Both the position numbers and the translations under genes were made by a program. Shown here one piece after another: positions 20,803-39,761 of a stretch of DNA of 64,000 nucleotides. Numbering within the stretch: position 1 is the stretch's first letter; the number at the start of each line of letters is the position of its first letter. Origin of the DNA: Epsilonproteobacteria bacterium tcs-49 (GTDB lineage: Bacteria; Campylobacterota; Campylobacteria; Campylobacterales; Sulfurovaceae); contig LLYS01000007.1 of NCBI GenBank assembly GCA_002049495.1, positions 1-64,000 on the forward strand, given 5' to 3'. Below the pieces are notes generated by a model that made no database searches, was not told where the DNA came from, and saw nothing but the letters and a program-made list of their open reading frames with translations.

Positions 20803-22873
20803 AGCTCAGCCTTTGTTCCATTTTGTATTCGATCAGTTTCGGAATATCGAAAATGAGCGCAACTTCCCCGTTGCCCAGAATCGAACCGCCGCTGATACCG
20901 GGGACCTGTTCAAAAACGGCTCCGAGGGATTTGATCACCGTCTGCTGCTCGCCGAAAAGTTCATCCACGAGCAGCCCTACGGCCTGGGTACCGTAACGCA
21001 CCACGACGATATTTTCCCTAACCTCCTCCCCGTTTGAAGCGATCTCTTGGTCCCTGTCGTGAAAAAAGCGCTTGATATTTAAAAGCGGCAGGATTTCGCC
21101 GCGGACGCTGATGGTGTTTTCCGAATCCACGCCGCTTTGAATCTCCTCGTTATACTCCAAACACTCCACGATCATCTCAAGGGGAATGATATACTTCGCC
21201 TGTCCCGCCTGTACCAAAAAACCGTCGATGATCGCCAACGTCAAGGGAAGCCGTACGGTGATCTTGCTGCCTTTTCCCCTGGCCGAATCCACGTCTATGG
21301 TGCCGCGAAGATCGTCGATGTTGCGTTTGACCACATCCATACCCACGCCCCGGCCGGAAAGGTCCGACACCTCCTTGGCCGTAGAGAGTCCCGCGGCAAA
21401 GATCAATTTATAAATCTCCCTGTCGCCGAGGGTATGGTCCCGTTCCAAAATACCGTTGTCGATCGCTTTTTTCTCCACCGCGTCACGATCGATCCCCGCT
21501 CCGTCATCTTCGAGTTCGATGATGATGCTGCCCGCGTCGGGATACGCCCGCAGCCAAACCTTGCCCTTTCGGGGTTTTCCCAATTCTTCCCGTTTTTGGG
21601 GAGACTCGACCCCGTGATCGATGGCGTTTCGGATCATATGGGTCAAAGGGTCGCTGAGCTTCTCGATGACGCTTTTGTCCAACTCCGTATCTTCGCCTTC
21701 GATGATAAAATCGATCTCTTTTCCCATTTTGGAAGCGGTATCGTTGACAATTCGCCGGTATTTGATAAAGGAGTCTTTAACCTGCACCATACGGATATTC
21801 ATCACCCCGTCACGCACCTCCTCAAGGAGGGAACTCATCTCCGAACTCATCTCTTCCAGGCTTTCATTTTCCCTGGAAGATGCGTATTCCGCGATCTGGG
21901 CGTTTTTGATCACCATTTCGCTCATCTTATTCAACAAGCCGTCGATTTTGAGCGAATCCACCCGCAAAGAGAAGCTTTTTTTCCTCTCCTTCCCTCCCTT
22001 TCGGGAAGTTTTTGCGGCGGCTTTGGAGCCCTCGTCGCGCTCTTTTGAAGCCTCTTTGGCGGGAGACAACTCCTCCGCCCCGTAGTGGCCGTTTTCCACC
22101 AGCAGCGTCTCAAGGTCCTCGTGGCGTCCCAGCAACTCCCGCAACCGCTCCTTATCGTCATGGGCGAAAACGGCAAGTTCTACGTCATCCTCTACAAATT
22201 CAAAAATCTCTTCGATCTCCTGCTTTGACTGCAGGGAGTCATACTCAATTTCAAAACCGATATAAAGCTGTCTGGGGTCCATCTCCGAGAGGGGAGGAAG
22301 GGAGTCGGTTACGGGGGTGATACGGGTGATTGTCCCCTGTTTGTTAAAAAAACGTAAAATAGAAAGCACATCCATCCCCGAATGAAAAAACTCCCTGTCA
22401 AAACGGACGGAAACGTGCCATAGATGACCTTCGGAGCGCTCCGGGTCTGCTTCCGGGGTCGCAGTTTCACCCGCACCCGGAGGCGCTTGTCCTCCCATAT
22501 ACTCCTGCATACTCTGCCTGAGCTTCTCCCCGGCTTCTTGCAAGGCGGAAGGGATCGGTTCGTTTTGTACCAGATGCTCTACCATCGCCTCGGTATGATC
22601 TTTCACCTGCATATACAGCGTCCCCAACCCGGAATCGAAAGCGATCTTGCCGTTGCGGACCTCGTCCAAAAGGTTTTCCGCGGTGTGGGTAAAGCGAACC
22701 ACCTGGTCAAAATCAAACATCCCGGCGGTCCCTTTGATCGTATGCATGGCCCGAAAGATCTCTCCGATGGTCTCCTGGTCCGCCGTTCCGTCCGCGGCAT
22801 CAAGCAGAGCCGACTCCATGCGCTGGAGCTGATCGGAGGTATCTTCGTAAAACAGTTGCAACTCTTCATCCAT
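20795..22873 (-). CDS. cheA: Chemotaxis histidine kinase
   Basis: A 692-residue CheA: HPt domain P1 (phospho-His 44 in MHTIKGTAG), a P2-like region, the P3 dimerisation helices, the P4 ATPase (MIRNAIDHGVESP, DDGAGID, GRGVGMDVV) and a C-terminal P5 CheW-like domain. It phosphorylates CheY and CheB. I start it at ATG 22873 because GGAGG lies 6 nt upstream; two further in-frame starts upstream would extend it by one or nine residues. It overlaps the STAS gene by 8 nt. Unlike many Campylobacterota CheA proteins, no receiver is fused to the C terminus. Confidence 0.95.
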   Translation of the reverse strand: MDEELQLFYEDTSDQLQRMESALLDAADGTADQETIGEIFRAMHTIKGTAGMFDFDQVVRFTHTAENLLDEVRNGKIAFDSGLGTLYMQVKDHTEAMVEHLVQNEPIPSALQEAGEKLRQSMQEYMGGQAPPGAGETATPEADPERSEGHLWHVSVRFDREFFHSGMDVLSILRFFNKQGTITRITPVTDSLPPLSEMDPRQLYIGFEIEYDSLQSKQEIEEIFEFVEDDVELAVFAHDDKERLRELLGRHEDLETLLVENGHYGAEELSPAKEASKERDEGSKAAAKTSRKGGKERKKSFSLRVDSLKIDGLLNKMSEMVIKNAQIAEYASSRENESLEEMSSEMSSLLEEVRDGVMNIRMVQVKDSFIKYRRIVNDTASKMGKEIDFIIEGEDTELDKSVIEKLSDPLTHMIRNAIDHGVESPQKREELGKPRKGKVWLRAYPDAGSIIIELEDDGAGIDRDAVEKKAIDNGILERDHTLGDREIYKLIFAAGLSTAKEVSDLSGRGVGMDVVKRNIDDLRGTIDVDSARGKGSKITVRLPLTLAIIDGFLVQAGQAKYIIPLEMIVECLEYNEEIQSGVDSENTISVRGEILPLLNIKRFFHDRDQEIASNGEEVRENIVVVRYGTQAVGLLVDELFGEQQTVIKSLGAVFEQVPGISGGSILGNGEVALIFDIPKLIEYKMEQRLSYA

Positions 22874-23138
22874 CATCCACCTCCATCTGCGTATCAAGTC
22901 CCGTCAGCAGCAGGTTTTGCTCCACGGCTTCGGGAAGGTTGCGTAAAGAAAACCGTTTCCCCTGCCGGTGTGCCTGCTTCGCCGCTGCCGTCAAAAGCTG
23001 TAAACCGCATAGATCACACTCTTGCACTTCGGAAAGATCAAGCTGCAGCTGCGGGGCAGCTTCCACTTCCCACAGCAGCTCCTTTTGCAAAGCATCCGCA
23101 TTTTCCACAGTCATATTTTTTATATTTAGCTTAACCAT
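22866..23138 (-). CDS. STAS-domain protein with Cys at the phospho-Ser position
   Basis: A 90-residue STAS domain of anti-sigma-factor-antagonist type. The motif that normally reads D-S-S-G or D-S-x-G, where a Ser is phosphorylated, here reads CDLCGLQLL, with Cys in the serine position. It therefore cannot be regulated by serine phosphorylation in the usual way. It sits between cheY and cheA with a 5-nt gap and an 8-nt overlap, so it is likely made stoichiometrically with CheA. A scaffolding or localisation role in the array is a guess. Confidence 0.78.
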   Translation of the reverse strand: MVKLNIKNMTVENADALQKELLWEVEAAPQLQLDLSEVQECDLCGLQLLTAAAKQAHRQGKRFSLRNLPEAVEQNLLLTGLDTQMEVDDG

Positions 23139-23143
23139 AACAA

Positions 23144-23509
23144 TTACCCCAGAAGTTTCTCTAATGCCATGAGAAATTTGTCTTTATTAAAGGGTTTCAG
23201 CAGCCATGCCTTAACTCCCAGCGCCTTTCCCCTGGCCTTGAGTTCGGGATTGTTTTCCGTCGTAAGCATCACTATGGGCAGAAACTCGTAACGCGGATCC
23301 GCTTTGACCCGTTCTACCATGCTTAATCCGTCCATTACCGGCATATTGATATCGCAAAACACCAGATCGACACGCTCACTTTCGAGCTGCTGCAGGCCCT
23401 CCTGTCCGTTTGTGGCGCTTACTACGTCGTAGCCGGCGCCACTGGCGGCTTTTTGAGCAACGGACCTGATCAGGGAGGAGTCATCTACAATCATCACCCT
23501 TTTAGCCAT
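23144..23509 (-). CDS. cheY: Chemotaxis response regulator
   Basis: The 121-residue product is a single receiver with the acidic pair in VDDSS, phospho-Asp in FCDINMPVMDG, conserved Thr in MLTTENN and Lys in LLKPFNKDK. This is the first gene of the chemotaxis operon, preceded by AAAGGAG. It is the best candidate for the CheA-dependent regulator that acts on the flagellar motor. Its N-terminal MAKRVMIVDDSSLIRS resembles the CheY family placed with CheA in many bacteria. Confidence 0.9.
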   Translation of the reverse strand: MAKRVMIVDDSSLIRSVAQKAASGAGYDVVSATNGQEGLQQLESERVDLVFCDINMPVMDGLSMVERVKADPRYEFLPIVMLTTENNPELKARGKALGVKAWLLKPFNKDKFLMALEKLLG

Positions 23510-23615
23510 CTTTTCTCCTTTATCGCATCGGCACTTTCTCCCCCGCTGGCGTGCGGAGAAAAATAAGATATTTCTTCAGCTTAAAATTGAATATTTTTTT
23601 TACTTATGCATAAAG

Positions 23616-23621
23616 ATTGTA
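23616..23621 (-). promoter_or_regulatory. Candidate -10 for the chemotaxis operon
   Basis: Read on the - strand this is TACAAT, about 105 nt upstream of the cheY start, in an AT-rich stretch. It is the best match in the divergent intergenic region; no -35 box is evident. Confidence 0.35.
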
Positions 23622-23635
23622 TATCATTGAAGTTT

Positions 23636-23660
23636 AATATTCTCTTAAAATGAGAATATT
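23636..23660. repeat. Inverted repeat, candidate operator
   Basis: AATATTCTC (23636-23644) and GAGAATATT (23652-23660) form a perfect 9-bp inverted repeat with a 7-nt spacer. It lies between the divergent promoters, over the region where a -35 contact of the cheY promoter would be. No T-run follows, so it is a better operator than terminator. The adjacent HTH-like gene is a possible binder. Confidence 0.45.
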
Positions 23661-23685
23661 ATACGCTATTTCGGAGTATTTCATA

Positions 23686-23694
23686 TGCTATAAT
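23686..23694 (+). promoter_or_regulatory. Extended -10 promoter for the HTH-like gene
   Basis: A perfect TGCTATAAT lies 33 nt upstream of the TTG start, identical to the element before btuB and lysE. Confidence 0.55.
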
Positions 23695-23727
23695 GAATAA
23701 AGGCATATTGAAAGAAGGGGGAAATAC

Positions 23728-24210
23728 TTGAGAGTTTATGAAAAGATCAACCTTTTGCTCAGGGAGCGTAAGCTACTGAAAAAAGATTTTGTCAAAATGC
23801 TGCTGGATCTGGAACCCCTGCTGCAAAGCACCGGCAACACGCCTTCGGAAAAAACGGTTTACAAATACCTCAACGGTACGGTCAACATCCCCATAGAGCT
23901 TGTCCCCTACATAGCCGAAGCCCTGGATATTCCCGAACAGAACCTTTTTGACGACAGTATGAAAATGAAGTTGAAATTCTGTGAAGAGATCGTCAAAAAC
24001 GCCGATGCCGAAGAGATCAACTATATCAATAAACTGATCACGACAAAGCTCTTGGAAAACTCCCACAACCTGGAAAAAAAGCTGGATCTTCACGATACCC
24101 AGATACAAAAGCTGCTGCACCTGCTGCCCTTTGCTCCCAAATCGATGGTCGATCACTTCATCGTACAGCTAAAAAAGATCAAAGAAACCGTTTTGAGTAT
24201 GCAGCAGTAG
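23728..24210 (+). CDS. HTH (XRE-like) domain protein of unknown role
   Basis: This 160-residue protein begins at TTG 23728 after GAAGGGGG. The first 75 residues resemble an XRE-type helix-turn-helix with a long recognition segment (SEKTVYKYLNGTVNIPIELVPYIAEALDIP), a pattern common in phage-repressor-like regulators. The rest is helical, with heptad-like charged residues that suggest oligomerisation. It stands alone between the chemotaxis operon and cobQ and could regulate either, or itself through the inverted repeat at 23636-23660. No ligand-binding domain is recognisable. Confidence 0.65.
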   Translation: MRVYEKINLLLRERKLLKKDFVKMLLDLEPLLQSTGNTPSEKTVYKYLNGTVNIPIELVPYIAEALDIPEQNLFDDSMKMKLKFCEEIVKNADAEEINYINKLITTKLLENSHNLEKKLDLHDTQIQKLLHLLPFAPKSMVDHFIVQLKKIKETVLSMQQ

Positions 24211-24219
24211 CCTTTACAG

Positions 24220-24225
24220 TATAAT
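24220..24225 (+). promoter_or_regulatory. -10 box for cobQ-cbiB
   Basis: TATAAT lies 9 nt after the preceding stop codon and 32 nt before the cobQ start. No riboswitch-sized leader separates it from cobQ. Confidence 0.5.
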
Positions 24226-24257
24226 AGCACCCAAGTTTTGCCAAAGGCTTTGATACG

Positions 24258-25643
24258 ATGCATCATCTGAGTATATTCGGCACCGCCAGCGATGCCGGAA
24301 AATCCACCGTTTCTTTTTTAATCGCGAAATTTCTGCAAGAGCGCGGCTACCGCACCGCTCCCTTTAAAGCCCAGAACGTATCGAACAACGCGCAGGTCAC
24401 CTCCGAACACAGGGAGTTGGCTATGGCGCAGTATTTTCAGGCACAGGTACTAAAGATCCCGCCCAGTGCGCATATGAACCCCGTTTTACTCAAATCCGGC
24501 TCCCGCGACGGAGCCAGCAGCGTCATTGTCCGGGGAGAAGCCGCGACAACGCAAAGCGTGCGGGATTATTACCGGGATCTGGAGAAACTCAAACCGGTGG
24601 TGGAGGAGTCCTTTTTGTATTTGGCAAAGCGTTACGACTGTTTGGTGTGCGAAGGGGCGGGCAGCCCGGTGGAGCTGAACCTTATGGAGAAGGATCTGGC
24701 CAACCTCTACACCGCAGAGCGTTTTGGCAACAGGATCGTTCTCGTCGCCGACATCGAAAAAGGGGGCGTGTTTGCTTCCATCTACGGCACTTTGGAGCTA
24801 CTGCCAAAACCCCTGCGCAAAAATCTGCTGGGGGTCGTGATCAATAAGTTCCGCGGTGACCGCTCCCTTTTTGACGAGGGGGTCGATATCATAACGCAGC
24901 GCTTTAAACTGCCCGTTTTAGGTGTTTTGCCCTACCGTCCCTTTGCTCTGGGTTTTGAGGACAGCCAAAGTTTGTACAACTATGCCCAAGCCCCCGGCGC
25001 GCCGATCAAGATCGGTGTAATCGCCTATCCGCATATGAGCAATTACAACGATTTTGAGCCTCTGATTATGGACCCCTCCATACAGGTGGACTTTATCCAA
25101 AGCAACCTTGAACGCTACGACGCACTGATCCTTCCGGGCAGTAAACGGGTGATCGAGGATCTGCGCTGGGTCAAAGGCTCAGGCTTGCACAAAATCTTGC
25201 GGGCATGGGAGAAGCCGCTGCTTGGTATCTGCGGCGGATACCAGATGCTTTTTTCCGCACTTAGCGATCCCTACGGCGTAGAAAACAGCGCCGGAAGTCG
25301 TGAACGGGGGCTCGGACTGCTCCGGGGCGAAGTACGTTTTGCCCGCAAAAAACGGCTCTACAGGGGGGAGTTTTCGCAATTCGGCATGAAGATCGGGGGC
25401 TTTGAGATGCGCCACGGAGAGGTGGACTTGGGCTGTGAACATACGCAAAAGGGAGCGCTTTGGGGTACCTTCATCCACACCCTTTTTGAAAACGACAACT
25501 TCCGTACCCGCTACCTGCAAACCATCGATCCCGCCTATGGGGGATTTGATTTCCAAAAACGCAAAGAAGAAAAGATCGCTACCTTTTGCGACGCCATGCG
25601 TCCTTATTTCGACCTGGATACGATTGAAAAGGGCTTGCGGTGA
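24258..25643 (+). CDS. cobQ: Cobyric acid synthase
   Basis: A 461-residue glutamine-dependent amidotransferase that amidates positions b, d, e and g of adenosylcobyrinic a,c-diamide. The N-terminal ATPase-like domain has a P-loop variant (GTASDAGKST) and KAQNVSNNA; the C-terminal glutaminase domain has the nucleophile Cys in LGICGGYQML and a His in WGTFIHTLFEND. It is co-transcribed with cbiB through a 4-nt overlap. Corrin-ring synthesis genes are not in the window, so whether this cell makes or only finishes corrinoids cannot be decided here. Also called CbiP. Confidence 0.93.
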   Translation: MHHLSIFGTASDAGKSTVSFLIAKFLQERGYRTAPFKAQNVSNNAQVTSEHRELAMAQYFQAQVLKIPPSAHMNPVLLKSGSRDGASSVIVRGEAATTQSVRDYYRDLEKLKPVVEESFLYLAKRYDCLVCEGAGSPVELNLMEKDLANLYTAERFGNRIVLVADIEKGGVFASIYGTLELLPKPLRKNLLGVVINKFRGDRSLFDEGVDIITQRFKLPVLGVLPYRPFALGFEDSQSLYNYAQAPGAPIKIGVIAYPHMSNYNDFEPLIMDPSIQVDFIQSNLERYDALILPGSKRVIEDLRWVKGSGLHKILRAWEKPLLGICGGYQMLFSALSDPYGVENSAGSRERGLGLLRGEVRFARKKRLYRGEFSQFGMKIGGFEMRHGEVDLGCEHTQKGALWGTFIHTLFENDNFRTRYLQTIDPAYGGFDFQKRKEEKIATFCDAMRPYFDLDTIEKGLR

Positions 25644-26506
25644 GCGTTGCGCTTTTTGCCTACCTGATCGACCGGCTCTTCGGGGAGTTTGCTTTTCTCA
25701 AACATCCCGTAGCGCTGATGGGGGATTATATCGCCTTTTTCGAACGCAGATGGTACCGGGATACGATCCTTCGCGGAGCCCTGCTTTGCGGCTCGCTGCT
25801 GCTTATTTGTTACGCTATTGCGGCGGTGATTACGCATCTTGTCACCCACCCGCTGCTTTTGGGGGCGATCGCTTCGACGGGACTGGCTTCAAAAATGCTC
25901 TATGACAGCGTCAGAGGCGTAATCGACCGGCCCCACACGATCAGATACCTTGTCAGCAGGGATACCGGGGCGCTCACCCCCTCCCAGATCAACCAAGCGG
26001 CCGTAGAAACCTATGCGGAGAACCTTTCAGACGGAGTGATCGCTCCGCTTTTTTATCTTCTGCTTTTCGGGCTGGAGGGGTTGTTTTTGTATAAAGCCGT
26101 CAATACGATGGATTCGATGATCGGTTACCGTACGCCCCGATATGATCGCTTTGGCAAATGCGCGGCAAGGCTGGATGATTTGAGCAACTACCTGCCCGCA
26201 CGCATCACCGCCTTGCTTATTATCCTGCTTTTTGCCAGCAGACGCGCCCTGGGCGGCTGGCGGCAGGGGGCGAAGCATCAAAGCTTGAATGCGGGATACC
26301 CCATCAACGCCATGGCCCGGGCACTGGGAGTCCGGCTGGGCGGCCCCGTCCCCTACTTCGGCAAACTCAAAGCCAAACCCGTTTTTGCCGCTGACGGGGA
26401 GGAAGCGAGCTCCGCCCATATCCGCGCGGCCCTGCGCCTGCAGCCGCGGTTGGACCTGTTGCTGCTGTCGCTGCTTCTTTATAGCAGCTTTGTGGGTTCC
26501 GCGTAG
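25640..26506 (+). CDS. cbiB: Adenosylcobinamide-phosphate synthase
   Basis: The 288-residue integral membrane enzyme attaches aminopropanol (or its phosphate) to adenosylcobyric acid. Family landmarks are HPVALMGDYIAFFE at the N terminus, ETYAENLSDGVIAPLFY, MDSMIGYR and NAMARALGVRLGGP. It starts at GTG 25640, overlapping the cobQ stop. The linker donor would be made by the cobD product at 7.9 kb. Its end overlaps the convergent GGDEF/EAL gene by 28 nt. Confidence 0.92.
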   Translation: MSVALFAYLIDRLFGEFAFLKHPVALMGDYIAFFERRWYRDTILRGALLCGSLLLICYAIAAVITHLVTHPLLLGAIASTGLASKMLYDSVRGVIDRPHTIRYLVSRDTGALTPSQINQAAVETYAENLSDGVIAPLFYLLLFGLEGLFLYKAVNTMDSMIGYRTPRYDRFGKCAARLDDLSNYLPARITALLIILLFASRRALGGWRQGAKHQSLNAGYPINAMARALGVRLGGPVPYFGKLKAKPVFAADGEEASSAHIRAALRLQPRLDLLLLSLLLYSSFVGSA

Positions 26507-27663
26507 AAAAAGCCCTGTGCATAATCGATCCCGAGTTCTTCGATTATCCGGGCGACCTGGGCGTTGTGCACAAACTCCGCGACCGTTTCAATCCCCGCTT
26601 CCTTGGCAAAAGCCACGATCGTTTTAACAATCATTTTTGAATTGTTATCCTCATGGATATGCTTGATCAGCGAACCGTCGATCTTGAGGTAATCCACTTT
26701 CAAATTGATCAAATGGTCAAAATTGGAGTATCCGCTGCCAAAATCGTCGATGGCGATCTTACAGCCGAACGCTTTGACCGTATCGATAAAGTTTTGCAAA
26801 ATATTGTAGTTTTCTATCTGCTCGCTTTCAACGATTTCGAAGGTCAGTTTGGGGGCAAGATCACTGTTTTGGCGTACCAGGTTGTAGATAAAGTGGGCAT
26901 TTTGCGCTTCGAGAATATCCTCGATGGAGATATTGACCGCCACCTCGATATCCAGTTTGCGCATGGTATCGATCGATTTGACCAGCATGATATGCGACAG
27001 GGCGTTGTAAAGCTTGACCTTTTTGGCGATATCGAGGAAGAAGAAGGGGCTCAGGCACCGGTCCTCCTCCTCTAAGCGCACCAACGCTTCATAGCGCACC
27101 GTAGCGTGGGTCTGCGTATCCGTAATCCCCTGAAAATAGGGTGTGATGCCATCGTTTTCGATCGCTTCCTTGACCCGCTGCACCATTTTGACGTTCTCTT
27201 TGACTTCCCGGGGATTGTTCATCTCTTCGGTAAAGAACTTCACCTTTTTCCCGAAGGTGCTGTGCAGCGCCTTGACACACAGCTGCGCGTTAAGCAGATG
27301 CGGCGAAACGGTAGAAACCCCTACGTTGACCACGACCGGAATATCGATATCTTTATAGTGGATAGGCGTATTTTCCACGATATAGATCACATCCTTGGCT
27401 ACGCGATCGAGAAACTCCTCATCCCTGCCGTGCATCACCAGGGCAAACTCATCCGCCCCGATACGGTAAAGCTCCATCTGTTGATGGCTCTGGGCGTAAA
27501 CGTTTAAAATCTCCGCGACCTTTTTGAGGGTGTGATCGCCCGCGTCCATACCGAAAATGTTGTTTACGGTGCTAAAATCGATCAGATCGATCAGCATAAA
27601 CTGCATATCTTTGATGTTTTTCGTACTCTGATAATACGCCGTACGGTTGGGCAAGCCGGTCAA
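26479..27663 (-). pseudogene. GGDEF-EAL part of an interrupted c-di-GMP enzyme
   Basis: This 394-codon frame starts in the middle of the conserved GGDEF opening (TDLLTGLPNR) and continues in the same frame as the upstream sensor part, separated only by a TAA at 27685-27687. The GGDEF active site is degenerate (GADEF), so no cyclase activity is expected. The EAL domain looks competent for c-di-GMP hydrolysis: YEALVRL, NISIED, IDDFGSGYSNF, KIDGSLIK and AEFV are kept. TTG 27663 lacks a convincing ribosome-binding site, so the fragment may be translated poorly or only by stop-codon readthrough. It could be a recent nonsense mutation or a sequencing error. Confidence 0.7.
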
Positions 27664-27684
27664 AAGATCGGTCTTCGTGGAGTG

Positions 27685-27687
27685 TTA
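27685..27687 (-). other. In-frame TAA between sensor and GGDEF-EAL
   Basis: Reading through this codon joins RLQKEY to HSTKTDLLTGLPNR with no frame change, which restores the standard linker-to-GGDEF junction. A single substitution from CAA, GAA, AAA, TTA or a Tyr codon would give this TAA. Confidence 0.85.
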
Positions 27688-28536
27688 GTACTCCTTTTGC
27701 AAACGCATAATCGTATGTTTTTCACGCTCGGTTTCAAAAATGAAGTATAAAATCACCGCCAGGCCGAGGATGGAGAACAGGACGATCAAAAACACTTGTA
27801 TATTCAGGTTTTTACGCACGTGGGCACTGTTTTTCACATACGCCGCGATGGTTTCGTCCACCAGCTTCTGCTCCCTGTCGCTGACGCTTTGGGCGATGGT
27901 TTTAATATACTCGGGCAGCTGCTTTAACAGCGTATCGGTATGAACCTGCAGCAACTTATGGAAAAGCTTTTTCTCCTTTTGTTCAAAACTGTACCCTTTC
28001 AAAACCTTTGCCAGCTCCCGGGCCCGCTGCTGGTCATATTCCAGCGTATTTTTCACCTGATAAAAGTAATTAAGCAGTTTCATCACGTCCTGACTGTAGC
28101 GTTTATCGAAAGGATCAAGCTGATAAATCTGCGAAGAGAGGTAGCTCAGGGAGTTTTTGACCCTGGCGTTTAACTCGAAAAGCTTTTCGGTCAAGGCACG
28201 CTTTTGCCTTACCGCATCTTCGAGCTGCTGCAATTTGACGCGGGTTTGGTCATAATAGCGCTTCTCATAGATCGCGGAGCTTTCCAGTACTTTAAACATC
28301 TTTTGCAGCGACAAGAACTTCTCGTTGATGCGGTCATTGTTGTAGTATTGGAACAAGATACTCTCTTCCGTGGCGTATTTCAAAGCTTGAAGCGTATCTT
28401 TCAAATCGCGCAGCGTGGTCGTGGTGGAGGTATAGTTGCTAAAATAGGTATCGATGGTTTGTTTATAGGTGTAGTTCCAGATAACCAGCGCAATAAATAC
28501 CACGGCTACGATAGCGATCTTGAGGCTTTTACTCAT
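27685..28536 (-). CDS. Membrane sensor part of interrupted GGDEF-EAL protein
   Basis: A 283-residue product with an N-terminal membrane helix (about 6-22), a long helical periplasmic region rich in Lys, Gln and Glu, and a second membrane helix near 248-268, followed by a short cytoplasmic linker that ends at the TAA. This is the usual sensory half of a membrane c-di-GMP enzyme. Alone it has no catalytic domain. It overlaps the upstream di-haem peroxidase-like gene by 8 nt, so the two are co-translated; a redox input is suggested by that neighbour only. Confidence 0.7.
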   Translation of the reverse strand: MSKSLKIAIVAVVFIALVIWNYTYKQTIDTYFSNYTSTTTTLRDLKDTLQALKYATEESILFQYYNNDRINEKFLSLQKMFKVLESSAIYEKRYYDQTRVKLQQLEDAVRQKRALTEKLFELNARVKNSLSYLSSQIYQLDPFDKRYSQDVMKLLNYFYQVKNTLEYDQQRARELAKVLKGYSFEQKEKKLFHKLLQVHTDTLLKQLPEYIKTIAQSVSDREQKLVDETIAAYVKNSAHVRKNLNIQVFLIVLFSILGLAVILYFIFETEREKHTIMRLQKEY

Positions 28537-29425
28537 CGGGCGTCCACGTCGCGGGCAATCTGCCCTCCAGGGTTTTTAAAAAGGCGATAATATGCGCTAT
28601 CTCCTCTTCGCTTAGAATCGTTCCCAGGTTATGATACCCCATCTTGCGCACCGCTTCGGAGAGGTTTTCCTCACTGCCGTCGTGAAAGTATGGAGCGGTT
28701 TGGGTGACGTTGCGCAGCGAGGGGACCTTCAGTACTTTACCCGTGGTATTGTCGTCAAATTTGCGGGGGATGACGACACCAAACTCCTGCAGGGAGTTTC
28801 CGCCGAGGTTTTTCCCGTTGTGGCAACTGACGCAACCGTAACTTTTAAAAATCTCCAGCCCCTTTTTCTGTTCGGGCGTCAACGCCTTTTCCCCTTTGAG
28901 GTACGCATCGAAAAGCGCGGGCGTCACCAGCGTTTTTTCAAAGGCGACGATCGCGTCTTTGAGCAGTGCGTAAGAGGGTGGTTTGCCGTATACTTTTGCA
29001 AAAAGTTCCACATACTCCCGGGAATTTTTCAAGCGCTTTTCGATCAACTCCGCGCTTGATGCCATCTCCACGTCCGAATGGATCGGGCCGTCGAGCTGTT
29101 CGTGCAGATCTTTTGCCCGGGCGTCCCAAAACTGATAGAAATTAAATTTCGCGTTAAAGACGCTGGGGGAGTTGAAGGTGCCTTTTGCCCCGTCCACACC
29201 GTCGGAAACGGGTTTTCTTTCCGCCCCGTAAACGTTGTGGCAGGAGAAACAGGAGAGGGTTTTGTCCTTGGAGAGCAAAGGATCGTAAAAAAGTTTTTGC
29301 CTCAGGCGGACCTTGGCTTTGTCGTAGGTCTGAACCTCTTCAATGGGTGCAAATACCTCTGTAGCATATACAAAGGCGCAAAAAAGCAAAAGCATAACTC
29401 CGATACGCACAAACATCCTTAGCAA
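28529..29425 (-). CDS. Periplasmic di-haem cytochrome c peroxidase family protein
   Basis: The 298-residue product has a signal peptide and two haem-binding sites, CFSCH and CVSCH, in the spacing of bacterial di-haem peroxidases and MauG-like proteins. The C-terminal half has PSLRNVTQTAPYFHDGSEENL, which is typical of the family. It would reduce hydrogen peroxide in the periplasm with electrons from a c-type cytochrome, or act as an oxidase-like sensor partner. The start is uncertain: TTG 29425, ATG 29416 or GTG 29410 are all in frame, and AAGG is best placed for the GTG. It lies between cobS and the interrupted c-di-GMP gene in one operon. Confidence 0.88.
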   Translation of the reverse strand: MLRMFVRIGVMLLLFCAFVYATEVFAPIEEVQTYDKAKVRLRQKLFYDPLLSKDKTLSCFSCHNVYGAERKPVSDGVDGAKGTFNSPSVFNAKFNFYQFWDARAKDLHEQLDGPIHSDVEMASSAELIEKRLKNSREYVELFAKVYGKPPSYALLKDAIVAFEKTLVTPALFDAYLKGEKALTPEQKKGLEIFKSYGCVSCHNGKNLGGNSLQEFGVVIPRKFDDNTTGKVLKVPSLRNVTQTAPYFHDGSEENLSEAVRKMGYHNLGTILSEEEIAHIIAFLKTLEGRLPATWTPDE

Positions 29426-29431
29426 TATGAT

Positions 29432-30172
29432 TTAATCATTATATATTAAAATTGTTTGCATTAAAATTAACTCGGTGACAACAATGCAAAACCCGTACAT
29501 ATCTCCGCTAAGCCCTCCGAATCTGCTTTGCAGCCATCGAGCCGCCAGATACGTACCCGCCAGCGCCGCCGCAAGTAGCAGCATAAACACTCCGAAGGGG
29601 ACAACCATCAGCAGCGGCAGCAAAAACGCGCCCCCCAAAAGCCAGACGAAAGGTCGCAGGTGCCCCTGTAGCGCGGCTCCCATCCCCCTGGAGACGGAGG
29701 GAAAGCCTCCGATGGCAAGCAGCACCGCGAAGCGGCTCATTCCGGCCACTGCGGGAAAATAGTACGGGGGTATCTGCACAAACGCCCCATACCCCAGCAC
29801 CAGCACAATAACCGTATAGATCATCCCCATCGCCCCGATGCGGGGATCTTTCATCACCTCCGCGTCGTTTGCGTAGATCCCATCGACCGTATCGGCGAAC
29901 CCATCGTAATGCAGTGCTCCGGTAGCGGCTATATAGAAGCTAAACGCCGCCGTCGCCGCATAGAGGTCTAAAAAGGGCAGCCAGTAACACAGCGCCGCGG
30001 CCGCCGTTCCCAGAATCACCCCCACAAGCGGGTAGCTAAGCAGTGCATAAGGGGTGTAGCGCCGCTTGTAAACGCCGTGTTTAAACAGCGCTATCGCCGT
30101 TAACATCTGCCAGGCGATCACAAACCCGCGACAAAACATCCTGAGGCCGTGGCCCACTTTTTTTCTCTTCAT
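29432..30172 (-). CDS. cobS: Cobalamin (5'-phosphate) synthase
   Basis: A 246-residue integral membrane enzyme that joins adenosylcobinamide-GDP with the activated lower ligand. The Asp-rich motif HYDGFADTVDG is the family signature, and six or seven membrane segments are predicted. ATG 30172 has no Shine-Dalgarno, but a - strand TGGTACAAT ends exactly 6 nt before it, which suggests a leaderless mRNA. A later ATG at codon 12 is possible. It is divergent from lysE with a 14-nt gap and precedes the peroxidase gene by 6 nt, so it heads that operon. Confidence 0.9.
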   Translation of the reverse strand: MKRKKVGHGLRMFCRGFVIAWQMLTAIALFKHGVYKRRYTPYALLSYPLVGVILGTAAAALCYWLPFLDLYAATAAFSFYIAATGALHYDGFADTVDGIYANDAEVMKDPRIGAMGMIYTVIVLVLGYGAFVQIPPYYFPAVAGMSRFAVLLAIGGFPSVSRGMGAALQGHLRPFVWLLGGAFLLPLLMVVPFGVFMLLLAAALAGTYLAARWLQSRFGGLSGDMYGFCIVVTELILMQTILIYND

Positions 30173-30187
30173 GCTATAATTGTACCA
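30172..30187. promoter_or_regulatory. Overlapping divergent leaderless promoters of cobS and lysE
   Basis: On the + strand TGCTATAAT (30172-30180) ends 6 nt before the lysE ATG at 30187. On the - strand TGGTACAAT (30187 down to 30179) ends 6 nt before the cobS ATG at 30172. The two -10 boxes share bases 30179-30180, so polymerase can occupy only one at a time. Neither gene has a ribosome-binding site. Confidence 0.6.
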
Positions 30188-30792
30188 TGATTACGTTTTT
30201 TCTCATCGCCCTGACCCTGGCACTGGTCCCCGGCCCCGACAATATCTATGTTTTAACCCAATCGATCCAGCGCGATAAAACGGCGGGATTGACGATCACT
30301 GCGGGATTGTGCAGCGGTTTGCTGCTCCACACCGTCGCCGCCGCTTTGGGGGTTTCTATCTTTTTTCACGCCAACCCCACGGCTTTTTCCGTACTACGGC
30401 TGCTTGGTTCGCTTTATCTGCTCTATCTCGCCGTTACGATCCTCAAGGAGGCTCCGGTCAAAGCCGGCGGAGGCAAAATGGAGAAAAAGGCCCTTGGCAA
30501 GTTGTATCTGAAGGGGATCGTGATGAATTTGACCAATCCGAAGATTTTGCTGTTTTTTCTTGCTTTTTTACCGCAGTTTGTCCATAGCGATCAAAACCCC
30601 TTTACGCAAACGCTGCTTTTGGGCACGCTTTTTATCCTCGCGACGGGGCTGATCTTTGGCTCGATCGCCCTCGCGGCAGGGGCGATCAAGCCGCTGTTTC
30701 GCTCGGTACGCTTTGTACGCGTGATGAATTTTTTAACCGCCGCCATCTTTGTGATTTTGGCCGTCAAACTCCTCAGCGCGGACTTGGCGTGA
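30187..30792 (+). CDS. LysE/RhtB family amino acid exporter
   Basis: This 201-residue membrane protein has the family N-terminal signature LALVPGPDNIYVLTQS and about five to six helices, including GLLLHTVAAALG and the NPKILLFFLAFLPQF segment seen in RhtB-type exporters. It probably exports an amino acid or related small molecule; the substrate is not evident. The ATG at 30187 is supported by the family N terminus and by the leaderless promoter placement. It converges with the downstream receptor gene, 1 nt apart. Confidence 0.88.
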   Translation: MITFFLIALTLALVPGPDNIYVLTQSIQRDKTAGLTITAGLCSGLLLHTVAAALGVSIFFHANPTAFSVLRLLGSLYLLYLAVTILKEAPVKAGGGKMEKKALGKLYLKGIVMNLTNPKILLFFLAFLPQFVHSDQNPFTQTLLLGTLFILATGLIFGSIALAAGAIKPLFRSVRFVRVMNFLTAAIFVILAVKLLSADLA

Positions 30793-30793
30793 T

Positions 30794-32080
30794 TTAGCGG
30801 GGTTCTTTGACCAAAGCGTCGAGCAGTTCAAAGAGTTGGTCACTGCCCTCTTCCATCTTTTCAAAATTATGCAATAACGCATCTTTATGCTGCAAAGGGT
30901 CGCCTTTGGAAACGTATTTCATATTTTCCATCGTATACTCGTGCACTTTGTTGTGGGCTTCTTCGATCTTTTTGTAGGTTCCCAAGCGGCCGAACCGCTC
31001 CTTTCCTTCACCGTAGAACCACTGCCCCAATTCACAGTTTTTCGGATCGGAAAAGTCCATCAACTCATCTTCGTTGAGCACCGAAGAGTACGCGGTGGTT
31101 TTAAAGACGATATGATCGATCTTCATCAGGGTCAGGGTGTTGATATCCTCCACCTGTTTGGAGAGTTTGGCGTTTTCGACCGCGCCTTCGTTAAAGCTGT
31201 TCAGCGAAGCTTCAAACTCCTCCACGTCCTCCTCCGCGCTCATAGCGATCTTTTTGATCTCTTCGGAGTTGGCCTGGATCCCCGTCGTCTCCTGCTGCAG
31301 GGTTTGCATGGTGATCGAAATCTCCGCGGTCGCCTTTTGGGTCTTTTCCGCCAATTTACGCACTTCGTCCGCCACAACGGCGAAGCCCCGGCCGTGTTCC
31401 CCCGCACGCGCCGCTTCTATGGCTGCGTTGAGGGCAAGCAGATTGGTTTGATCGGCGATATCTTTGATCATATTCACCACCGACGTGATCTCCCCCGTAC
31501 GCTCCCCCAAGGAGTTGATGGCGTCGTTGGTATTGGCGATCAACTCGGCAAGATCTTTGATGGAGTGGTTAAGGTTTTTCGTCGTCTCCAGACTTTTCGT
31601 GGAGCGGTCGGCGGTTTCCTCGGAGGATTCGGTAATTTCGGTGATATTTTCCAGTGTGCCTTCGATCGCTTCCTGAACGCGGTGCAAACTTCCCTGGATC
31701 CCGCCGCCAAGCTTGTTAAACTTCTCCGACAGTTCCCCTTTTTGCTTGGTTTTTTCACCGCTGATGACGCCCTGAACCCCCTTGGCCACATATTCGGCAC
31801 TTTCATGGAAGGTTCCCTTTAAGCCCTGGGACTGGATATTTCGATGGGTCACCCCCTCACTGGCTTTTGTGATAGAGGTTTGGGTTTCACGCATGAAAGC
31901 TTCCATCTGGTCGATAATATCGTTCACGGCCCACGCTACTTGACTGAGCGGATCGCTGCTGTTGATTCTGGTGACCCTTTTTTCAAGCTTTCCCTCCCGG
32001 GCATCCAATACAACCTGCAGCAATTTTTCATACAACTCTTTATCGCAATTGACTTTGCTCGCATCACTAAAAATAGCCAT
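30794..32080 (-). CDS. TlpD-like cytoplasmic chemoreceptor with C-terminal CZB zinc domain
   Basis: A 428-residue soluble receptor without membrane segments. The signalling hairpin holds [20 protein letters not shown], and the C terminus is a CZB domain with the ligands His in KIDHIVF, Cys in CELGQW and the pair in EAHNKVHEY. This is the arrangement of Helicobacter TlpD, which I recall responds to oxidants and acid. N-terminal 120 residues are helical without a PAS or HAMP signature. It probably signals through the CheA encoded at 20.8-22.9 kb. It has its own promoter. Confidence 0.9.
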
Positions 32081-32093
32081 TATCTCCCTTTAT

Positions 32094-32119
32094 GTACGGT
32101 ATCCGAACGCTTGCCGTAC
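32094..32119 (-). other. 5' UTR hairpin of the TlpD-like gene
   Basis: GTACGG and CCGTAC form a perfect 6-bp stem with a 14-nt loop, in the short leader between the promoter and the Shine-Dalgarno GGGAG. It could affect mRNA stability or translation. Confidence 0.35.
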
Positions 32120-32132
32120 GGACAATTTAAAA

Positions 32133-32141
32133 AGTATATCA
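32133..32141 (-). promoter_or_regulatory. Extended -10 promoter of the TlpD-like gene
   Basis: On the - strand TGATATACT matches TGnTATAAT with one mismatch and would start transcription about 46 nt before the ATG. Confidence 0.5.
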
Positions 32142-32237
32142 TGTATGCAGTTAGTTTTTTCTTTCGGTACCTTCTATCGCGAAAGATTGAAGCATATTAT
32201 AAGAGTACATAATACTTAAACTTTTTTAAGCACCACA

Positions 32238-32269
32238 GGGTAGTATCCGCCTTTAAACGGAGATTACCC
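32238..32269. repeat. Imperfect inverted repeat in the tlpD-aroB gap
   Basis: GGGTA (32238-32242) and TCCG (32246-32249) pair with CGGA (32258-32261) and TACCC (32265-32269), leaving a symmetrical 3x3 internal loop. The 281-nt gap between the two start codons otherwise shows the tlpD promoter, a GCTAT/ATAGC palindrome at 32313-32325 and AT-rich sequence. I recognise no riboswitch core. Confidence 0.3.
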
Positions 32270-32361
32270 CTTCGCGACTTTACCGTTCTCAGGTCTGTTT
32301 TAACGCTTTTTAGCTATTATATAGCATTATAAAACAACTCCAAAAACGTAAAGAAAACAGG

Positions 32362-33402
32362 ATGACAGTCAATATCGATTTAAAAGATGCGAACTACCCC
32401 ATTATTATCGACGATCTGCCCCGTATGAGCTTTGAGAAAAAGGTTGCGATCGTCACCAATCCCAAAGTCGCGGGTCTGTGCCTTTCCAAGGTATTAGAGC
32501 GCCTGGAGGCAAAAGAGGTGTATATCATCACCGTCAACGACGGCGAACACTATAAAAACCTGCAAACGGTGGAATCGATTTTGGACAAAATGTTTGACCA
32601 CCGCATGGATAGAAACTCCATGCTCATAGCTCTTGGCGGCGGCGTGGTCGGCGACATCACCGGCTTCAGCGCTTCGATCTTCCAGCGCGGCATCGAATTC
32701 GTCCAGATCCCCACCACCCTGCTTTCACAGGTGGATGCCAGCGTGGGCGGTAAAACGGGGGTCAATAACCGCTTCGGCAAAAATCTCGTGGGAGCGTTTC
32801 ACCAGCCAAGCGCGGTCTATATCGATACGCAGTTTCTGCACACCCTGCCCAAGCGTGAATTCAGCGCAGGGGTTGCCGAGATCGTCAAAATGGCGGTGAT
32901 GTTTGACGCCGACTTTTTCGATTGGCTTGAAAGTGTCGATCTACATGATGAAAACAGTTTGAAAAAGGCGATTCTGCGCTCCGTGGAGCTCAAAGCCCAA
33001 GTGGTGGGCGAGGATGAGAAAGAAAAGGGGATCCGCGCGGTGCTTAATTACGGCCACACCTACGGCCACGTCATCGAAAACCAGACCGGTTACGGCACCT
33101 ACCTGCACGGCGAAGCGGTGGGTATCGGTATGGTCATGGCAAACCACCTGGCGATGAGTATGGAGCTTTTAAATCCGGAGGAAAACTGCCGCATCAAAGC
33201 CCTGCTTGAACGCTACGGTATCCCCGTCACTTACGCAATCGAGGATTTGGAAGGGTTTTACGACCACTTCTTTCTGGATAAAAAAAGCCAGGAGAATGTT
33301 ATCAAGTTTATTTTGCCCAGAGGTATCGGCAAACACGAAATCGTCTCCGGCGTGGAGAAAAAGATCGTTATCAACGCTATGGAAAGCTTCTTAAAGGGAT
33401 AA
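32362..33402 (+). CDS. aroB: 3-dehydroquinate synthase
   Basis: A 346-residue NAD-dependent, metal-dependent enzyme of the shikimate pathway converting DAHP to 3-dehydroquinate. Visible family features are the NAD-binding GGGVVGDITGFSASIFQRG, the IPTTLLSQVDASVGGKTGVN active-site stretch and the metal-binding LNYGHTYGH and LHGEAVGIGM. ATG 32362 is preceded by a purine-rich stretch. Three genes follow within short distances (mscS, mtaB, ftsH-like), a run I recall from other Campylobacterota. Confidence 0.96.
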   Translation: MTVNIDLKDANYPIIIDDLPRMSFEKKVAIVTNPKVAGLCLSKVLERLEAKEVYIITVNDGEHYKNLQTVESILDKMFDHRMDRNSMLIALGGGVVGDITGFSASIFQRGIEFVQIPTTLLSQVDASVGGKTGVNNRFGKNLVGAFHQPSAVYIDTQFLHTLPKREFSAGVAEIVKMAVMFDADFFDWLESVDLHDENSLKKAILRSVELKAQVVGEDEKEKGIRAVLNYGHTYGHVIENQTGYGTYLHGEAVGIGMVMANHLAMSMELLNPEENCRIKALLERYGIPVTYAIEDLEGFYDHFFLDKKSQENVIKFILPRGIGKHEIVSGVEKKIVINAMESFLKG

Positions 33403-33405
33403 TAT

Positions 33406-34980
33406 TTGGCACGAATCGTAGTTTTATTGACCTTTGTGGGCTCTTTGCTGCTGGCGGAGAACAATATCAGCAGCGAGCGTTTTGAAGAGCTCAAATCGCA
33501 AAACAGCTCCATCAGCGAAGAGTTGGACGATGACAACATCTATAGAAAAATCTACAGCAACTACCAAACCTTCAATTCCCTCAAAGCTAAACTGGAGCGA
33601 GTAACCAAGGAGTTGGGCAAAACCAAAAAATCCTCCGGGAAATATGACGATTTGATCGAGCAGCAGGAGTTGCTGCAAAGCCAGATCGCGCTTTTAAAAG
33701 AGTATGAAAAGAACCCCTTTAAAAAGGTGATGCAGCCCAAAAAGGTCCAAAACGACCTGACCGTGGACAACCCCTTCGCCATCGTGGCGGCATTTTCCTA
33801 CCTCAAGCAGATGACCAGCGACAAGGAGGATTACCTCTCCAAGTTTGAAAACCTGCAGGAGTTGGTGGCAAAGCTGAAACAAAAGCGCGATATCCTGGAG
33901 CAGCTGGTCAATAAGGATCCCCGGTATGAAGCCAGGATCACCAAGCTCAACGACGAGATCAACACCTATGAGCAGTTGCTCAAAACTTACAACATCACCA
34001 AAGATGTGTATCTCAAAGAGATTACCGAGCGTAAGATCGAGATCGAACAGGAGATCGAGAAGGAGCTGGAGCGGCTTTTCATCCTGCTGGCGATCCTGTT
34101 TGTTCTGTTTGTGTTCGTTTTTCTCTCCAAATTCGGGGTTAAAAAGTATATCAGCGACAACGAGCGCTACTATCTGGCCAATAAAACGATCAATCTGACC
34201 TTTGTTACCATCGCCATCTTGATCATCGCTTTTCGCTATATCGAAAACGTTTCCTATATCGTCACCTTTTTAGGGTTTGCCTCCGCGGGTATCGCCATCG
34301 CGATGAAAGACTGGTTCATGAGCGTCATCGGCTGGATCGTTATCGTTTTCGGCGGATCGGTACACGTGGGGGATCGGATCAAGGTACGGAAGGACGGACT
34401 GGTCTACGTGGGCGACGTGATCGACATCTCCCTTTTTCGGATGACGGTACATGAGGATATCACCCTGACGACCTATATGGAAAACCGCCGTTCCGGACGG
34501 ATCGTCTTTGTCCCCAACCACTACATCTTCACCTCCCTGATCGCCAACTATTCACACTCGGGGATGAAAACGGTATGGGACGGGATCGATTTTACCATCA
34601 CCTTTGACTCCAACATCGCCAAATCCAGTATGATCGCCAAGGATATCGCCAAAAAATACGCCAAGGGCTACACCAACATCACCCGTACCCAGCTCAACCG
34701 CCTGCGTTCAAAATACAGCCTCAAAAACACCAACGTCGAACCGCGGGTTTTTTCCTTTATCGAAGCCAACGGGGTACGTATCAGCGTATGGTATATGACC
34801 AACGCCTTTGCCACGCTCACGCTGCGCAGCAACATCAGCGCCGAGATCGTCGAAGCGGTACAAAGGGAAGATGATATCACCCTTGCATACCCCACCCAGT
34901 CTATCTACCTGGACAAAGATGTGCGTAAACCCGACGACGCCATCGAGATCGGGGAAAACAACCGGGGCGTTATCGTATGA
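33406..34980 (+). CDS. MscS-family mechanosensitive channel with periplasmic coiled coil
   Basis: The 524-residue protein starts at TTG 33406, three bases after aroB. It has a signal peptide, a helical periplasmic region of about 190 residues rich in Lys and Glu, two or three membrane segments near 220-310 and the MscS beta domain containing FGGSVHVGDRIKV. The pore helix FASAGIAIAMKDWFMSVIGW fits the family. It would open under hypo-osmotic stress. The long coiled-coil extension resembles the larger MscS/MscK-like forms rather than minimal MscS. Confidence 0.85.
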   Translation: MARIVVLLTFVGSLLLAENNISSERFEELKSQNSSISEELDDDNIYRKIYSNYQTFNSLKAKLERVTKELGKTKKSSGKYDDLIEQQELLQSQIALLKEYEKNPFKKVMQPKKVQNDLTVDNPFAIVAAFSYLKQMTSDKEDYLSKFENLQELVAKLKQKRDILEQLVNKDPRYEARITKLNDEINTYEQLLKTYNITKDVYLKEITERKIEIEQEIEKELERLFILLAILFVLFVFVFLSKFGVKKYISDNERYYLANKTINLTFVTIAILIIAFRYIENVSYIVTFLGFASAGIAIAMKDWFMSVIGWIVIVFGGSVHVGDRIKVRKDGLVYVGDVIDISLFRMTVHEDITLTTYMENRRSGRIVFVPNHYIFTSLIANYSHSGMKTVWDGIDFTITFDSNIAKSSMIAKDIAKKYAKGYTNITRTQLNRLRSKYSLKNTNVEPRVFSFIEANGVRISVWYMTNAFATLTLRSNISAEIVEAVQREDDITLAYPTQSIYLDKDVRKPDDAIEIGENNRGVIV

Positions 34981-38387: not shown

Positions 38388-39761
38388 ATGACAAATGAAA
38401 CTTTTACCACCCTACCCCTAAGCGACGCAATGGTCGCGAACCTAGAGACCCTCGGCTATACGCAGATGACGCCCATCCAGCAAGCTTCGCTTCCGTTGAC
38501 CCTGCAAGGCTGTGACCTGATCGCAAAAGCCAAAACGGGCAGCGGCAAGACCGCGGCTTTCGGGATCGCGCTTTTGCACAAACTCAACGTCAAGCGCTTC
38601 CGCATCCAAACCATGGTGCTGTGCCCCACCCGCGAACTGGCCGATCAGGTCGCCCAGGAGCTGCGGCGGCTGGCGCGCTTTACGCACAATATCAAAATCA
38701 CCACCCTGTGCGGCGGGACGCCCTACAAACCCCAGGTGCATTCGCTCTCCCACCAGGCCCACATCGTCGTGGGTACGCCCGGGCGCGTTTTGCAGCATTT
38801 GAAAGAGGGCTCCTTTTCCCCCAAAGAGATCGACACCCTCGTTTTAGACGAAGCGGATCGGATGCTGGAGATGGGCTTTAGCGAAGATATCCGAACCATC
38901 ATCGACTTTCTGCCCAAGCAGCGTCAAACGATGCTCTTTTCCGCCACCTACCCCGAAAACATCGAAAAACTCAGCCGCGACATCATGCGTGAGCCCGAAT
39001 TTATCCGGATCGATACGCAGCATGAAAAGCGCGTCATCGAACAGCACTTTTACCGCGCCAAAGGCTTTGACGAGAAAGCCGATACCGTCATCAAAACCCT
39101 GCAGCGCTACGAGCCATCCTCCTGCGTCGTGTTTTGCAACACCAAGCTTGACTGCGACGATCTGGGCGACGATCTGGAGGATCACGGCATCGATACGCTG
39201 GTGCTGCACAGCGATTTTGAACAAAAGGAGCGTGACGAATGCCTGACGCTTTTTGCCGGAAAAAGCTACCCCGTTCTGGTCGCCACCGACGTGGCGGCGC
39301 GGGGACTGGATATCGACGATATCGAACTGGTGATCAATTTCGACCTGCCCGGGGATTTTGAAGTCTATACCCACCGCATCGGAAGAACGGCCAGAGCGGG
39401 CAAAAGCGGCCGCGCCGTCTCCCTTGTCCAGGGCAGACGCGACGAAGCGATGCTGCAGGAAAATATCGATGATCCCGAGATTACGGATGTAAACCATGTG
39501 GCGATCCGCGAGGATTTTACCCTGCGCGCGGAGTATACGACCATCTTCATCAACGGCGGCAAAAAGGGCAAGCTGCGCGCGGGTGATATCCTGGGCGCGC
39601 TGACCAAGACCGTGGGACTGCACAAGGACGACGTGGGCAAGATCACCGTCTACCCCCACTGCTCCTACGTCGCGGTCAAAAACGGCGTCGCCACGCAGGC
39701 GCTGCAGGGCTTGAGCCGCAACCGCATCAAGAAAAAGTTTTACAGGGTTTTCAAAAAGTAA
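38388..39761 (+). CDS. DEAD-box RNA helicase, DbpA-like
   Basis: The 457-residue ATP-dependent RNA helicase shows a Q motif (MTPIQQ), AKTGSGKT, PTREL, VLDEADRM, SAT, and HRIGRTARAG. The C-terminal 75 residues (TIFINGGKKGKLRAGDILGA) match the DbpA RNA-binding domain, which directs DbpA to 23S rRNA helix 92. It is likely involved in 50S subunit assembly. ATG 38388 has no Shine-Dalgarno and lies 6 nt after a -10 box; an upstream extension into bioV is not supported. Confidence 0.9.
   Translation: MTNETFTTLPLSDAMVANLETLGYTQMTPIQQASLPLTLQGCDLIAKAKTGSGKTAAFGIALLHKLNVKRFRIQTMVLCPTRELADQVAQELRRLARFTHNIKITTLCGGTPYKPQVHSLSHQAHIVVGTPGRVLQHLKEGSFSPKEIDTLVLDEADRMLEMGFSEDIRTIIDFLPKQRQTMLFSATYPENIEKLSRDIMREPEFIRIDTQHEKRVIEQHFYRAKGFDEKADTVIKTLQRYEPSSCVVFCNTKLDCDDLGDDLEDHGIDTLVLHSDFEQKERDECLTLFAGKSYPVLVATDVAARGLDIDDIELVINFDLPGDFEVYTHRIGRTARAGKSGRAVSLVQGRRDEAMLQENIDDPEITDVNHVAIREDFTLRAEYTTIFINGGKKGKLRAGDILGALTKTVGLHKDDVGKITVYPHCSYVAVKNGVATQALQGLSRNRIKKKFYRVFKK

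Follow-up and report, generated by a model that had tools for sequence, protein, structure and literature searches.

How two divergent genes can both be expressed from a gap of 14 nt is the question raised by cobS and lysE, which lie back to back in the window (the whole 64,000-nt stretch of DNA that was analysed). The locus is probably a bidirectional sigma70 promoter with leaderless mRNAs, of a compact, constitutive type and not a regulatory switch. As far as the sequence goes, it is best read as two known phenomena, the sharing of a -10 region by divergent promoters and leaderless mRNA, in an unusually tight variant that is doubly leaderless with predicted starts 15 bp apart.

Layout of the locus

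The lysE gene (30187-30792, plus strand) encodes a LysE/RhtB-family exporter of 201 aa (Pfam LysE, PF01810, 121 bits) and is the one LysE-family gene in the genome; no NCBIfam equivalog match above cut-off was obtained for its product. The cobS gene (29432-30172, minus strand) encodes adenosylcobinamide-GDP ribazoletransferase, 246 aa when counted from ATG 30172 (CobS, PF02654, 121 bits). The gap at 30173-30186, read directly as GCTATAATTGTACC, is flanked by CAT 30170-30172 and ATG 30187-30189, so that the cobS start codon (ATG at 30172, minus strand) and the lysE start codon (ATG at 30187, plus strand) are 14 nt apart. No credible gap is shorter among 122 divergent pairs (median 143.5 nt); a single gap called at 0 nt is probably a miscall.

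On the plus strand, TATAAT (30175-30180) is accompanied by TG at 30172-30173, and on the minus strand TACAAT (30184-30179) by TG at 30187-30186. Each TG stands one base 5' of its hexamer, and its T is the complement of the A in the opposite gene's ATG. The hexamers overlap by two bases (30179-30180), and both lie 6 nt from their own ATG. The resulting extended -10 elements, TGCTATAAT for lysE (30172-30180, plus strand) and TGGTACAAT for cobS (30179-30187, minus strand), form a 16-bp near-palindrome, TGCTATAATTGTACCA (30172-30187), the two ends of which are the predicted +1 positions. An earlier note on this DNA had given the 14-nt separation, the two-base overlap and the 6-nt distance from box to ATG, all of which agree base for base, and had called both boxes extended, as the TG with each hexamer bears out.

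Downstream of cobS on the minus strand, the run continues with a di-haem cytochrome c peroxidase (CCP_MauG, 28529-29416), which begins 15 nt past the cobS stop, and ends with a DAHL protein (27685-28536) and a GGDEF-EAL region (26479-27663), together spanning 26479-28536. The last two are split by an in-frame TAA at 27687-27685 (minus strand). The frame is otherwise open across this TAA and the GGDEF-EAL region looks like the remainder of the DAHL-domain membrane protein; a sequencing error, a disruption or a real split are candidate causes. The closest solved structure to the neighbouring AroB is 3clh, from Helicobacter pylori; together with the promoter motif described below, it suggests Campylobacterota.

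Promoter motif and scores

Stretches amounting to 1.26 Mb of the genome were sampled and about 1,220 genes were called. A promoter motif was learned de novo from 474 upstream regions of this genome; gaps under 60 nt were left out of the training, and the cobS/lysE pair with them. The learned sigma70 motif is TGnTATAAT-like, with T-rich positions at -28/-27 and -18/-17, G at -14 and TATAAT, and has no -35 element. It is identical to the extended -10 promoters of Campylobacter and Helicobacter, for which a sigma70 motif of TGxTATAAT with a periodic T/A-rich upstream region and without a -35 element was described in C. jejuni and H. pylori (PMC3656092); the two-way overlap is the sole difference at cobS/lysE.

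The lysE box scored 14.8 bits (1 match per 58 kb-strand), close to the 95th percentile among best promoter scores, and the T-rich tract 5' of it (30158-30169, plus strand) fits the T-rich -28/-27 and -18/-17 positions that replace a -35 box. The cobS box is weaker, with 9.15 bits (1 per 5 kb-strand, between the median and the 75th percentile of best promoter scores), and no T tract lies upstream of it. The promoter would be expected to favour lysE. No other motif match above 5 bits was found in 29900-30450 (about 250 nt either way) besides the two boxes. When the 14-nt gap was shuffled 100,000 times, both scores were reached in none of the shuffles, and the cobS score alone was reached with P = 1.7e-4.

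Start codons and predicted leaderless mRNAs

ATG 30187 is the sole in-frame start that gives a full-length lysE. Duplexes with the anti-Shine-Dalgarno (anti-SD) sequence were computed upstream of the start codons, with a genome median of -5.6 kcal/mol. The value was -0.3 kcal/mol for lysE (3% of genes weaker) and -2.9 kcal/mol for ATG 30172 of cobS (18% of genes weaker), in keeping with the earlier claim that neither gene has a Shine-Dalgarno (SD).

For Epsilonproteobacteria, PMC3847290 gives the leaderless rule as gnTAnaAT, 5-9 nt and ATG, and describes leaderless status as poorly conserved between species of the group. The pattern gnTAnaAT-N5-9-ATG occurs twice at this locus, as GCTATAAT-N6-ATG for lysE and as GGTACAAT-N6-ATG for cobS. 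Leaderless mRNAs of the group share sigma70 gnTAnaAT, an ATG start, the lack of an SD and a low percentage of genes in the parts of PMC3847290 and PMC11955535 considered, which describe them singly, gene by gene; cobS/lysE would have two leaderless starts on one promoter core. The proposal of overlapping divergent leaderless promoters in the earlier note is strongly supported by the sequence on the lysE side and less so on the cobS side.

In the sampled genome, the motif at 8 bits or more was found 5-7 nt 5' of the start in 11 genes, compared with 3 genes in the 0-4 nt range and 6 in the 8-16 nt range. About 1% of genes therefore look leaderless, in agreement with the roughly 20 leaderless genes predicted in C. 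jejuni (PMC11955535). This profile of start distances took over from a mononucleotide shuffle of upstream regions that was not decisive (12 extended -10s at leaderless distance observed, mean 4.2, maximum 13). A further leaderless candidate in the window, ...cgctatacttccgcc|ATG with a motif of 13.8 bits at 6 nt, precedes a 457-aa ORF at 38388-39761 (plus strand) that by eye resembles a DEAD-box RNA helicase. In this genome, a TAnnnT box 5-8 nt ahead of an ATG marks more candidates: C11:31004, C1:48107 (minus strand), C5:17649, C2:36381 (minus strand), C4:13881, C13:122805 and C3:20212.

Spacing of predicted divergent starts within the genome

The predicted start sites at cobS/lysE, 30187 (plus) and 30172 (minus), coincide with the A of each ATG and are 15 bp apart. 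Among opposite-strand spacings of predicted starts across the sample, 15 bp (14 sites, 10 of them between divergent genes) was the commonest overlapping spacing below 30 bp, next to 18 bp (12 sites), 23 bp (6), 28 bp (7) and a cluster at 36-38 bp. A partner at 15 bp accompanied 9.5% of the motif matches in divergent gaps, where motif symmetry alone would give 0.7%, and none of the 240 matches in tandem gaps. In a motif-independent test, 4 palindromes were observed against 0.28 expected (P = 2e-4). The spacings of 28 bp and 36-38 bp were also preferred; motif symmetry predicts the 37-bp one and, to a lesser degree, the 28-bp one.

Bidirectional promoters with a pseudo-symmetric -10 region were described by Warman, Grainger and colleagues (PMC10268837, PMC12825309) as divergent starts 7-25 bp apart that share a -10 region. 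The predicted starts here fall within that range, and a -10 overlap created by symmetry is present at 30179-30180 within the 16-bp palindrome. The described promoters often drive two mRNAs of divergent genes, as is predicted for cobS/lysE. They differ in that they prefer spacings of 18, 10 and 23 bp, which are typical and not defining, whereas cobS/lysE has 15 bp, a complete extended -10 on each strand and predicted starts on the start codons. In the 18-bp geometry that E. coli prefers, it is -7T and -11A that fall together (PMC10268837, PMC12825309). Spacing 15 permits a full TGnTATAAT on both strands, and each T-15 faces the opposite +1 A.

The arrangement may be read as follows. The 14-nt gap and one base of each start codon would form a single bidirectional sigma70 promoter made of two extended -10 elements in twofold symmetry (TGnTAtAATTnTAnCA), with AT in common and starts 15 bp apart, to which RNA polymerase would bind in either orientation. 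With +1 predicted at the A of ATG in each orientation, both mRNAs would be leaderless, with translation beginning at a 5'-terminal AUG and involving no Shine-Dalgarno. As the T-15 of each TG pairs with the opposite +1 A, each start codon would also build its neighbour's promoter.

Occurrence across the order

Two-way palindromes of the form TGnTAnAATTnTAnCA recur as a class, and in this genome their spacing of 15 is over-represented between divergent genes. In an exact-palindrome search through the whole of 399 genomes of the order, TGNTANAATTNTANCA was found at 1032 sites versus 172 for the reversed letters, most strongly in family f15 (220 versus 9 reversed, 21 genomes) and family f12 (41 versus 0, 2 genomes). 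The reversed control does not contain the promoter half-site, and part of the order-wide excess therefore reflects promoter density; that effect was addressed for this genome only, by the partner-at-15-bp and motif-independent tests. When 400 kb of each of three other genomes was searched by the motif method, little or no 15-bp peak emerged, so use of the class is uneven between lineages. Unusually rich in 15-bp palindromes of the form TGnTAnAATTnTAnCA are one genome with 33 sites (G047) and family f15, with about 10 in each genome; runs of T and A often border these sites, between divergent genes with short, SD-led leaders. In a sample of 16 sites from two genomes of two other families, about 12 lay between divergent genes with short leaders; an AAGG-type SD was present at many, at least 2 sites were inside coding sequence and one was tandem.

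The exact doubly leaderless form, CATGNTANAATTNTANCATG, was found in 3 genomes, one of them at cobS/lysE itself, and its reversed control in none. At locus L221 of a genome from another family (G417), a response regulator (MNILLLEDDEL...) and a HAD phosphatase (MKLIIFDMDGTL...) both start exactly on CATGNTANAATTNTANCATG; both start codons are obvious from the protein families, which makes the locus an independent doubly leaderless case as judged from sequence. The third match (G440, L222) was discarded as it is not between divergent genes. The 15-bp variant seems to be a design that recurs within the order.

Alternative explanations

Of the two start codons, that of cobS is the less certain. 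In-frame alternatives are GTG 30157 and ATG 30139, and the promoter could be the same with lysE alone leaderless and cobS carrying a leader of 15 nt (GTG 30157) or 33 nt (ATG 30139). The nearest cobS homologues (39-42% identical, from another family) begin two residues 5' of M12 (ATG 30139), about 9 residues past ATG 30172, and cobS may therefore start at 30139 or 30157 with a leader of 15-33 nt. Codons 1-9 of cobS are not conserved among these homologues, and coding potential did not distinguish the three starts (30172, 30157, 30139). Against a leader, neither ATG 30139 nor GTG 30157 has a usable SD (duplex energies of -3.8 and -2.9, which are weaker than in about 75-80% of genes; an AGG abuts ATG 30139 directly), and the distance from the -10 to ATG 30172 is exactly that of a leaderless gene. 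A 5'-terminal AUG is the preferred leaderless start. The position of the -10 and the lack of a usable SD at the downstream starts make ATG 30172 the best choice, and a cobS mRNA with a leader is unlikely.

The earlier note had also held that the genes must compete for RNA polymerase, that their expression would be mutually exclusive and that a cobalamin operon is thereby coupled to an exporter. Simultaneous occupancy is indeed sterically barred, as overlapping -10s cannot hold two opposed polymerases at once (PMC12825309), and activation of one direction can repress the other, so that an antagonistic switch is possible in principle. It is unsupported here: in five E. coli bidirectional promoters, competition was absent at basal activity, which was too low, and arose only on strong activation of one direction (PMC12825309). 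No riboswitch was found in 22000-34000. The genes that run with cobS are not cobalamin genes, cobQ-like and cbiB-like genes nearby being on the opposite strand, and among the relatives examined none had cobS within 1.5 kb of lysE; searches of genome contigs with LysE and CobS found no same-genus relatives. Sister palindrome sites flank unrelated, housekeeping pairs (greA/surE, L25/malic enzyme, nifU-like/tRNA synthetase, murJ/FapA, NUDIX/radical SAM), which argues against functional coupling and equally against a shared operator. A selected switch is accordingly improbable, and we infer that regulatory coupling of cobS and lysE is lacking. More improbable still would be an operator function, with the palindrome bound by a dimeric regulator such as a Fur-like protein and its likeness to a -10 secondary. 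The palindromic form, its recurrence and the one sister site beside znuA and a Fur-family gene would suit such an operator, but the letters that are conserved match the extended -10 of this genome exactly, and the distances to the start codons suit promoters. Chance AT-rich matches, with one or both genes transcribed from elsewhere, are scarcely plausible. Short motifs of the Campylobacterota type are prone to chance matches and the cobS/lysE pairing is confined to this genome, but the empty flanks of the two boxes and the gap shuffles speak against chance, as does a lysE with neither another possible start nor an SD. A bidirectional sigma70 promoter with leaderless mRNAs remains the preferred reading.

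Implications

We lean, by a little, towards the view that the 15-bp twofold-symmetric extended -10 makes up a bidirectional promoter class in its own right, one under selection in Campylobacterota-type bacteria, and that the T-15 of each element has a second role in pairing with the +1 A of the other. The extreme of this class would be the doubly leaderless pair, where the same bases serve as start codons and as promoter and neither is free to change alone. Such loci would offer natural cases where a change of start codon must alter the neighbour's promoter. If the starts are as predicted, the gap between cobS and lysE would be close to the smallest intergenic region able to express two genes, and a clade reliant on the extended -10 would have moved its two-way promoters from the 18-bp to the 15-bp geometry.
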